Assembly: GCA_001768235.1 (NCBI GenBank)
Contig: MENK01000001.1
Coordinates: 146,267-210,266 of the forward strand
Source of the DNA: Bacteroidetes bacterium GWB2_32_14
Lineage (GTDB): Bacteria; Bacteroidota; Bacteroidia; Bacteroidales; UBA12077
DNA length: 64,000 nucleotides
Reading direction: 5' to 3'
The notes beneath the pieces are model-generated. The model did no database searches and had not been told where the DNA came from. It was given only the letters and a program-made list of their open reading frames with translations. A program made the position numbers and the translations under genes. Below are positions 13,676 through 15,663 of the stretch, piece by piece. Every line of letters starts with the position of its first letter. The stretch's first letter is position 1.

Positions 13676-13920
13676 ATTATTTTTATAAAATCATTTTAGC
13701 CCATTAAAGGATAATCTTTATTTATAATTTGATTCATTTTTAATAACTTGCATAATTGTCCTGTTTTTTTGAAAGTATGTATTGTTATTCATCTGTTTGG
13801 AAATTTAAAATGAAATGATTTTTTAATATTTTTTACCGGAGTTAGGCTGTATAACATAATTGAATGATTATATTTTAATTATTTTTGAACCTTCTTTTTA
13901 CAATAAAAATTGAAAATAGT

Positions 13921-15663
13921 ATGGCAAAAGAAATAAAATTTAGTTTAGTATATCGCGATATGTGGCAATCTTCAGGGAAATACGTTCCCCGGGTTGATCA
14001 GCTTAAAGAGATTGCACCTGTTATTATTGATATGGGCTGTTTTTCCAGGATTGAAACTAACGGGGGAGCCTTTGAACAAGTAAATCTTTTATATGGTGAA
14101 AACCCGAATACGGCCGTTCGTGAATGGACAAAACCTTTTAACGATGCAGGAATTCAAACCCACATGCTCGAAAGAGCGTTGAACGGAATACGTATGTATC
14201 CTGTTCCGGCTGATGTCCGCCGGTTGATGTATAAAGTAAAAAAAGCACAGGGAGTTGACATTGCCCGTTCTTTTTGTGGATTAAACGATCACCGGAATCT
14301 CGAGTTGTCGATTAAATATGCTAAGGAGGCAGGAATGATTTCACAGGCTACACTGAGTATAACTCATTCGGCCATTCATACTGTTGAATACTACATGGGT
14401 GTTGTTGATAAGGCTGTTGAATACGGAACAGATGAAATCTGTTTAAAAGATATGGCTGGTGTTGGGCGCCCTGCAACATTGGGAAGACTTGTGACTGAAA
14501 TAAAAAAGAAATACCCACATTTAATTGTTCAATATCACGGACATTCCGGACCCGGGTTTTCTGTTGCATCAACCTTAGAGTGTGCACGTGCCGGTGCCGA
14601 TTATATTGATGTAGCTATGGAGCCACTTTCCTGGGGAATGGTTCATCCCGATGTTATTACTATTCAGGAAATGCTTAAAGACGCAGGTTTTAAAGTGCCA
14701 GAAATAAACATGAAAGCTTACATGAAAGCCCGTGCACTAACCCAGGATTTTATGGATGATTTTTTGGGTTATTTTATTGATCCCAAGAACCGATACACAT
14801 CATCATTGCTGGTACAATCGGGTTTACCCGGCGGAATGATGGGTAGCATGATGGCTGACCTGAAAGGTGTTCACAGGGGAGTAAATCAGATGATTGAATC
14901 ACAAGGTAAAAAGGCCTTAACAGAAGATGATTTATTGGTAAAATTATTCGATGAGGTAATTGATATCTGGCCAAGATTGGGGAACCCTCCACTTGTTACC
15001 CCCTTTAGCCAGTACGTGAAAAATATTGCATTAATCAATGTAATGCAGGAAATTCAGGGAAAAGGAAAATTTGAGATGATAGACAACAATTCGTGGGATA
15101 TGATTCTGGGTAAAGCTGGTAAATTGCCTGGTACATTAGACCCCGAGATTGTTAAACTGGCAGAGAAACTGGGTAAAGAGTTTTATACAGGTGTTCCTCA
15201 AGATGCTTACCCTGATGAGCTGGATAAATTCAGGAAAGAAATGATTGAAAATGGATGGGACCCTGGACAGGACGACGAAGAACTGTTTGAGTTTGCCATG
15301 CACGATCGCCAGTATCGTGATTATAAATCAGGGCTTGCTAAAAAACGTTTCCAGGAAGAACTGCAAAAAGTAAAAGGTGATTCGAAAACGACTCCGGGAA
15401 AACCTGCTAAAAAGGTCGAAGCGGGTAAAAAAGATATTGTTGCTCCATACATGGGTAAGATTTTTTATAATTTAAATTATTTTATTGAAGAAAAAGCCAT
15501 TGAATTGGGCAATATGGTGAAGAAAGGAGAACGTATTTGTTATATTGAAAGTAATTATACCTATGATGAAATTATTTCAGAATTTGATGGCGAAGTAGAT
15601 GAAATCTTCTTTAATCATGGTGACAATGTTTCAAAAGGCGATATAATAGTGAGATTAAAATAG
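13921..15663 (+). CDS. pyruvate carboxylase B/oxaloacetate decarboxylase-alpha-like protein lacking the biotin lysine
   Basis: This 580-residue protein has the layout of pyruvate carboxylase subunit B: a TIM-barrel carboxyltransferase domain (about 5-265), the conserved carboxylase domain (about 280-470), a Lys/Pro linker (about 475-500) and a C-terminal biotinyl/lipoyl-like domain. The metal site looks intact: Asp13 in YRDMWQS, Lys176 in CLKDMAG (the carbamylated lysine in the family) and His206/His208 in QYHGHSG. In the C-terminal domain the family's EAMKM is replaced by ESNYT, so the biotin-accepting lysine is Tyr546. The frame is open 12 codons further upstream, but MAKEIKFSLVYRD is the natural N-terminus. 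It is a lone gene, with a terminator after it. Confidence 0.85.
   Translation: MAKEIKFSLVYRDMWQSSGKYVPRVDQLKEIAPVIIDMGCFSRIETNGGAFEQVNLLYGENPNTAVREWTKPFNDAGIQTHMLERALNGIRMYPVPADVRRLMYKVKKAQGVDIARSFCGLNDHRNLELSIKYAKEAGMISQATLSITHSAIHTVEYYMGVVDKAVEYGTDEICLKDMAGVGRPATLGRLVTEIKKKYPHLIVQYHGHSGPGFSVASTLECARAGADYIDVAMEPLSWGMVHPDVITIQEMLKDAGFKVPEINMKAYMKARALTQDFMDDFLGYFIDPKNRYTSSLLVQSGLPGGMMGSMMADLKGVHRGVNQMIESQGKKALTEDDLLVKLFDEVIDIWPRLGNPPLVTPFSQYVKNIALINVMQEIQGKGKFEMIDNNSWDMILGKAGKLPGTLDPEIVKLAEKLGKEFYTGVPQDAYPDELDKFRKEMIENGWDPGQDDEELFEFAMHDRQYRDYKSGLAKKRFQEELQKVKGDSKTTPGKPAKKVEAGKKDIVAPYMGKIFYNLNYFIEEKAIELGNMVKKGERICYIESNYTYDEIISEFDGEVDEIFFNHGDNVSKGDIIVRLK

Follow-up and report, generated by a model that had tools for sequence, protein, structure and literature searches.

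The transcarboxylase of Propionibacterium freudenreichii is described, in an excerpt of PMC2909200, as a polycistron of four coding sequences, namely 18840 (1.3S), 18850 (small), 18860 (12S) and 18870 (5S). For X. ruminicola, the excerpted text of PMC11575231 states that propionate is formed via a Na+-pumping methylmalonyl-CoA decarboxylase 'rather than by transcarboxylase'; it also remarks on split mmd loci, with a 50-aa ORF located between mmdA and mmdC and with mmdB elsewhere. A survey of human gut genomes, in the portion available as an excerpt, found the two-subunit transcarboxylase confined to two actinobacterial genera and reported that alternative enzymes for the transcarboxylase step do not co-exist (PMC9403272). 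According to an excerpt of PMC3199775, divergent homologues similar to transcarboxylases were excluded from that study. No biotin-less OadA of Bacteroidales was found in the literature among open-licence papers, which is weak evidence of absence.

The window analysed here is a stretch of 64,000 nucleotides from Bacteroidetes bacterium GWB2_32_14 (contig MENK01000001.1). ORF, Pfam and relatives identify on its forward strand, on which all features given below lie, an intact gene for a biotin-less carboxyltransferase (CT) of the OadA/PycB/5S type of 580 aa (13921-15663). In the ORF listing the frame can be extended upstream to a TTG at 13885, and relatives align from the ATG at 13921. Pfam analysis of the 580-aa protein showed HMGL-like, PYC_OADA and Biotin_lipoyl domains. 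The CT region comprises residues 1-480 (13921-15360; Pfam, AlphaFold2 and Foldseek), and alignment places in it the metal ligands Asp13 (13957-13959) and His206-Gly-His208 (14536-14544), as well as Lys176 (14446-14448), which aligns with the LKDMA lysine of 5S, carbamylated in that protein. Met240 (14638-14640) occupies the column that we presume to be that of Thr882 in the pyruvate carboxylase of R. etli. A fast-evolving linker with higher dN (residues 481-504, 15361-15432; dN and AlphaFold2) leads to a degenerate biotinyl domain (residues 505-580, 15433-15660; Pfam, conservation and AlphaFold2), of which residues 505-579 match Biotin_lipoyl (PF00364) at 33.0 bits against a cut-off of 22.1. 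At the column of the biotin lysine stands Tyr546 (TAT, 15556-15558), with ESNYTYDEI aligned to ESMKTYNAI of the biotin-bearing relatives named Type I below. AlphaFold2, run with 73 family sequences (mean pLDDT 85.5), models strands at 538-544 and 547-552 that are joined by a turn of residues 545-546, the spot that bears the lysine in biotin enzymes. The initial annotation had described a complete CT with its metal residues, a C-terminal biotinyl-like domain and the replacement of the biotin lysine by Tyr546, and all of this was borne out. The neighbouring genes, assigned by eye, are def- and yqgF-like; none of OadG, OadB and biotin carboxylase is encoded beside the gene. A terminator scan found none, and promoter-like sites numbered 10, against 7.7 (sd 2.9) in shuffles.

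Each listed NCBIfam model of the OadA, PycB or pyruvate carboxylase families scores below its own cut-off, and the protein is therefore a divergent cousin of these enzymes. The top score among the matches listed (25 of 32 families) was that of PRK09282, 249.9 bits against a cut-off of 402. The best Foldseek match of the model was likewise a two-subunit pyruvate carboxylase (5ks8), from whose beta subunit the protein differs in lacking a biotin lysine and a biotin carboxylase neighbour. Like OadA, the alpha subunit of the Na+-translocating oxaloacetate decarboxylase (2nx9), it combines a CT with a C-terminal biotinyl domain (TMt 0.87 to the V. cholerae OadA); unlike OadA, it lacks the lysine, is not adjoined by OadG or OadB and reaches only 229.1 bits with TIGR01108 (family cut-off 756.5). 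With the 5S subunit of the Propionibacterium methylmalonyl-CoA carboxytransferase (1rqb, 1rqh, 1u5j, 1s3h) it shares the CT fold (TMt 0.83-0.85), the HMGL/PYC-type barrel, the Asp/Lys/His/His metal site, the lack of a biotin lysine of its own and a separate small carrier encoded in the genome; a similar four-part gene cluster occurs in genome G146 (see below). It differs from 5S in that identity is 25-27%, in that the 5S match stops at query residue 459 and a biotinyl-fold tail follows, and in belonging to a clade with OadA-like proteins of Bacteroidales. In the window genome itself, 12S and 1.3S subunits are not encoded with it. MmdA of the methylmalonyl-CoA decarboxylase MmdABCD is of the Carboxyl_trans type (PF01039), whereas the CT studied here is of the pyruvate type (PF00682/PF02436). 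The tail has the fold of biotin carrier domains (PF00364) but is missing the modifiable xMKx lysine at the hairpin tip. Compared alone by sequence, it best matches lipoyl domains of PDH E2 (7b9k, E 2.3e-6), followed by pyruvate carboxylases (1.3e-4), yet the lipoyl lysine (hairpin, DKA context) is likewise absent from it.

Within the same taxonomic family the gene was identified in 18 of 25 genomes, that of the window included, with copies 82-95% identical within the genus and 76-79% in the next genus. All 17 other copies lack the lysine, which rules out a sequencing error at this codon; its absence across relatives, and the purifying selection on the tail reported below, rule out a single broken copy. 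Scanning of genome contigs showed 67 of the best 80 loci to be without an AMKM/SMKM motif and 13 to possess one. Among 109 aligned sequences of the lysine-less form (Type II, which includes the window protein), 106 have no lysine at the site, where Tyr (62) is commonest, followed by Thr (12), Trp (9), Asn and Phe (6 each), His, Arg and Lys (3 each), Leu (2) and Cys, Glu and Ala (1 each). An xMKx motif was found in none of the 109; six have a lysine somewhere in columns 543-549, none as xMKx. In L049, L056 and L079 a lysine has been regained at the aligned column itself, in the context IGKT. That homologues might mostly keep the lysine does not hold within this clade; two related sub-families, Types I and III, do keep it. 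The loss is a genuine, conserved feature, neither an error nor a lone broken copy.

To define these sub-families, 185 sequences were gathered, taking only the best match per locus from the retrieved loci, and 25 identical over the CT core were dropped; typing the remaining 160 by the motif within the last 100 residues gave 109 Type II, 25 Type III, 22 Type I and 4 outgroup sequences. Type I proteins (607-639 aa in 19 of 22; motifs EAMKTYN, ESMKTYN, EAMKVFN and similar) look like true pump OadA: OadB adjoins 20 of the 22 loci, and the ORF preceding one of the genes (L272) is OAD_gamma. Another Type I OadA, L297 of G113, has 706 aa and two tandem biotinyl domains, both with EAMKTFN. Type III proteins (about 720 aa) possess the same CT followed by an AMKM/SMKM carrier domain, which is preceded by what by eye resembles a BT domain. 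The 13 Type III loci from the best-80 scan are flanked by genes for an MccB-like CT (12), an enoyl-CoA hydratase (11), an acyl-CoA dehydrogenase (13) and an HMG-CoA-lyase-like protein (11); neighbour identities were verified at L042, where the MccB-like CT scores 710-715 bits against solved MCC beta chains. None of these 13 flanks contains a match to P0006, the biotin carboxylase of the window genome. The Type III loci L034, L037, L040, L042, L043, L045, L057, L058 and L067 look like candidates for an ATP-free methylcrotonyl-CoA transcarboxylase.

In a CT tree (quick search, SH-aLRT support only, midpoint-drawn), Types II and III group together with an SH-aLRT of 100, to the exclusion of Type I and the outgroup, and Type III is nested within Type II (starred branches). 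The four type labels require three changes on this tree, the minimum possible; branching among Type I is unsure because the outgroup branch is very long. The simplest history would be a single loss of the lysine from a biotin-bearing OadA of Na+-pump clusters, followed by the gain of a new carrier through fusion. The family was found in 68 of 198 genomes of the order Bacteroidales, with Type II in 33, Type I in 22 and Type III in 16; Types II and III occur together in 4 and Types I and II in 2, and three genomes (G126, G222 and G239) hold fragments only and were left untyped. Second copies of Type III in G093, G195 and G086 were typed by frame length. In a sample of the phylum 3 of 296 genomes were positive, the window's own among them, all of the same order.

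The CT active site is retained throughout Type II. Lys176, His206 and His208 are present in 109 of 109 sequences and Asp13 in 108 (the exception, L079, is cut at its start); with Gln16 and Arg85, all six residues are conserved in at least 108. By a criterion of >90% consensus over 480 CT columns, Types II and III differ at a single column (310, L310M), and two columns (50 and 232) discriminate Type I from Types II and III. Given this near-identity to a biotin-bearing CT, the Type II CT should still be capable of biotin chemistry. The Met240 column is altered: Type II has Met in 68, Lys in 35 and Thr in 6, compared with Met in 24 of 25 Type III, Thr in 22 of 22 Type I and Ser in 4 of 4 outgroup sequences, and a phmmer alignment places Pro there in 5S. 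In pyruvate carboxylase Thr882 is essential, the T882A variant being inactive (excerpt of PMC5895798).

The degenerate tail is under purifying selection. Glycines 512, 530, 557 and 567 are retained in 97-99% of the 109 Type II sequences, and omega of the tail, computable for 8 of 12 pairs, ranges from 0 to 0.053 (dS is saturated in the window pairs), compared with 0.010-0.104 for the CT. Where both values exist (7 pairs), the tail has the lower one in 5. Within Type II the mean pairwise identity of the tail is 0.34 and that of the CT 0.74; within Type I the two values are 0.54 and 0.74. The low omega and kept glycines, set against the low identity across genera, therefore indicate that the fold is selected at short range, with drift of the hairpin tip and the surface between genera.

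The initial annotation had also raised a second copy with EAMKM and free biotin carrier proteins. Neither another PYC_OADA protein nor a lysine-bearing second copy was found in the window genome; three free short EAMKM carriers were, namely P0003, P0007 and P0002. P0003 (contig C9) is of the MmdC type and belongs to a cluster of epimerase, mmdA, OadG, carrier and OadB adjoining citrate lyase genes. P0007 is the 177-aa carrier that, together with an acyl-CoA-type CT, adjoins P0006 on contig C33, the one clear biotin carboxylase found in the genome. P0002 (123 aa, contig C18) forms an orphan pair with the 12S-like CT P0004; this C18 pair (L110:7926-9856; carrier motif EAMKMKN) has no biotin carboxylase or OadB alongside. 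By manual count at an identity of at least 68%, 136 of the 198 genomes sampled in the order encode an orthologue of the C18-type CT; the share is 15 of 33 among genomes with Type II and 121 of 165 among the rest. Being common in the order and not enriched with the biotin-less gene, it is not an obligatory partner, and the C18 pair as sole specific partner was downgraded. The C18-pair carrier is also present in five of seven genomes of the same family without the window gene (G011, G016, G018, G019 and G024). Three of these (G011, G018 and G024) encode a PYC_OADA protein of another kind, some 650 aa long, whose EAMKLF tail was read in G011 and G024. Four loci of the same family (L173, L175, L176 and L180) encode a CT of the canonical OadA type, some 645 aa long and equipped with an EAMKLF carrier domain. 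The adjacent gene is AccA-like, as assigned by Pfam (ACCA) at L175 and L180 and by eye at L173 and L176, a pairing that suggests a variant of acetyl-CoA carboxylase fed by transcarboxylation. L335 (G245 C21) and L342 (G101 C27) each encode a free carrier some 250 aa long with tandem biotinyl domains, seen as two PF00364 matches in one frame; in L335 both have ESMKM.

Each of the 26 genomes with the biotin-less gene that were scanned with PF00364 has a short, free, carrier-like ORF in a frame of 143-255 aa, the motif having been read in part of them. Six of the genomes (G065, G072, G117, G172, G178 and G228) possess one biotinyl/lipoyl ORF only (E<=1e-6), in each case within an mmdA cluster. 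In G146 the biotin-less gene itself is followed, after 74 bp, by mmdA (product 86% identical to the C9 MmdA), a 66-aa ORF resembling the tail of OadG (48% to OadG P0009) and a carrier of 143 aa with EAMKM; neither OadB nor biotin carboxylase is encoded in the next 4.6 kb. G072, G079, G183 and G228 contain mmdA, an ORF of 58-77 aa and a carrier, and OadB is absent from the 12-18 kb retrieved in each case (the G079 cluster being 2 kb from a contig end); three of these four genomes have an epimerase-like ORF of the glyoxalase family upstream. By BLAST the short ORF is OadG-like in three of the four, the exception being the 72-aa ORF of G072; Pfam gave no significant match for any short ORF in the five genomes. 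These clusters are similar to the mmdA-ORF-mmdC module of X. ruminicola. Among 112 biotin-less loci with full genes (a redundant set, median total flank 11 kb), other carboxylase parts were found in the flanks of three, all of mmd type: L261 is the full CT-MmdA-small ORF-carrier cluster of G146, seen at this one locus; at L097 (Dysgonomonas sp. PH5-45), an epimerase-like ORF lies with mmdA some 5 kb downstream; and L051 has OadG, a carrier and OadB about 5 kb off on the opposite strand.

Several functions could be proposed for such a protein. In a split pyruvate carboxylase it would be the CT subunit and make oxaloacetate at the expense of ATP, with the C33 biotin carboxylase charging a free carrier. 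The single clear biotin carboxylase with its adjacent 177-aa carrier, and the lack of any other PYC_OADA protein in the genome, agree with this, but that carboxylase already has an acyl-CoA-type CT adjoining, biotin carboxylase is found in the fetched flank of 0 of 112 biotin-less loci, and the sole carrier of each single-carrier genome lies in an mmdA cluster; we regard this function as rather unlikely. An oxaloacetate decarboxylase pump that shares the carrier, OadG and OadB of the methylmalonyl-CoA decarboxylase, acting for instance after citrate lyase, is unlikely. The adjoining OadB of the nearest biotin-bearing kin and the OAD_gamma ORF at L272 point towards it, as do the OadB-containing mmd cluster beside citrate lyase genes in the window genome and the arrangement at L051. 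Against this, L051 is the only one of the 112 loci with OadB in the flank, or with OadG and OadB within about 8 kb, and five biotin-less genomes have the mmdA-short ORF-carrier cluster without a nearby OadB, one of these clusters holding the CT gene.

The initial annotation had left a choice between biotin supplied by a separate carrier and a new use of the domain. A biotin-independent barrel of the HMGL type, that is, an aldolase or metal-dependent decarboxylase with the tail as mere scaffold, appears quite unlikely: the lysine is gone and the threonine column is Met or Lys in 103 of 109, but the same Met in the near-identical CT of Type III goes with a biotin motif, the metal and substrate residues are unchanged and G146 clusters the CT with a carrier. 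Of the new uses suggested, a tail that serves as scaffold agrees with biotin in trans, and a biotin-free reaction is hinted at solely by the changed threonine column. Decay to a non-functional gene, to which the lost cofactor site and the lower tail identity than in Type I might point, is highly improbable, being contradicted by the omega values of CT and tail (where computable), the kept fold glycines and the occurrence of the gene across the order.

The protein is probably a 5S-like pyruvate/oxaloacetate CT subunit of a split, ATP-independent methylmalonyl-CoA:pyruvate transcarboxylase that receives its biotin in trans. It is supported by the kept catalytic residues, the clade shared with the biotin-bearing Type III and its near-identical CT, 5S among the best folds, the carriers in 26 of 26 genomes, the six single-carrier mmdA genomes, the G146 cluster, the OadB-free mmdA clusters of four further genomes, the mmd-only flank parts and the tail omega. 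Counting against it are the altered Thr882 column, the full cluster at only 1 of 112 loci, the lack of mmd neighbours at the window gene, a C18 pair that does not track the gene, the contig end near the G079 cluster, the short ORFs lacking Pfam matches (and, in G072, resemblance to OadG) and the gut-genome survey as excerpted (PMC9403272). The Type II CT would descend from an alpha subunit of the OadA type that lost its biotin lysine. MmdA would charge the MmdC-type carrier P0003 with the carboxyl group of methylmalonyl-CoA, and a free carrier, most likely P0003, would supply biotin in trans to the CT; the 123-aa C18 carrier P0002 is a second candidate in the window genome. The proposed net reaction is methylmalonyl-CoA + pyruvate <-> propionyl-CoA + oxaloacetate, and the dead biotinyl domain may be retained as a structural (scaffold) or docking part. 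On the evidence, a 5S-like working of the protein is what is proposed, and formal 5S membership is not claimed.

More tentatively, the biotin-less CT of Bacteroidales might be an interchangeable plug-in that shares MmdA and MmdC with the Na+ pump, its dead domain serving as a docking or gating module; the carboxyl group of methylmalonyl-CoA could therefore be routed either to Na+ export (OadB) or to oxaloacetate (CT). As part of the same doubtful but possible scheme, the Type III CT, re-armed by fusion, would be the one-chain partner of MccB-like subunits in an ATP-free methylcrotonyl-CoA transcarboxylase in leucine-degradation-like clusters.

Annotated by best hit, proteins of this kind would be labelled OadA or subunit B of pyruvate carboxylase; both are biotin enzymes, and these proteins cannot be either on their own. 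The family also provides a case of a conserved pseudo-carrier domain in which the loss can be placed and a later re-fusion followed. Propionate formation in Bacteroidales is drawn with the Na+-pumping methylmalonyl-CoA decarboxylase; if the protein is indeed a 5S-like subunit, part of the order would also have an ATP-free transcarboxylase, and the carbon and energy accounting of these propionate producers would change.
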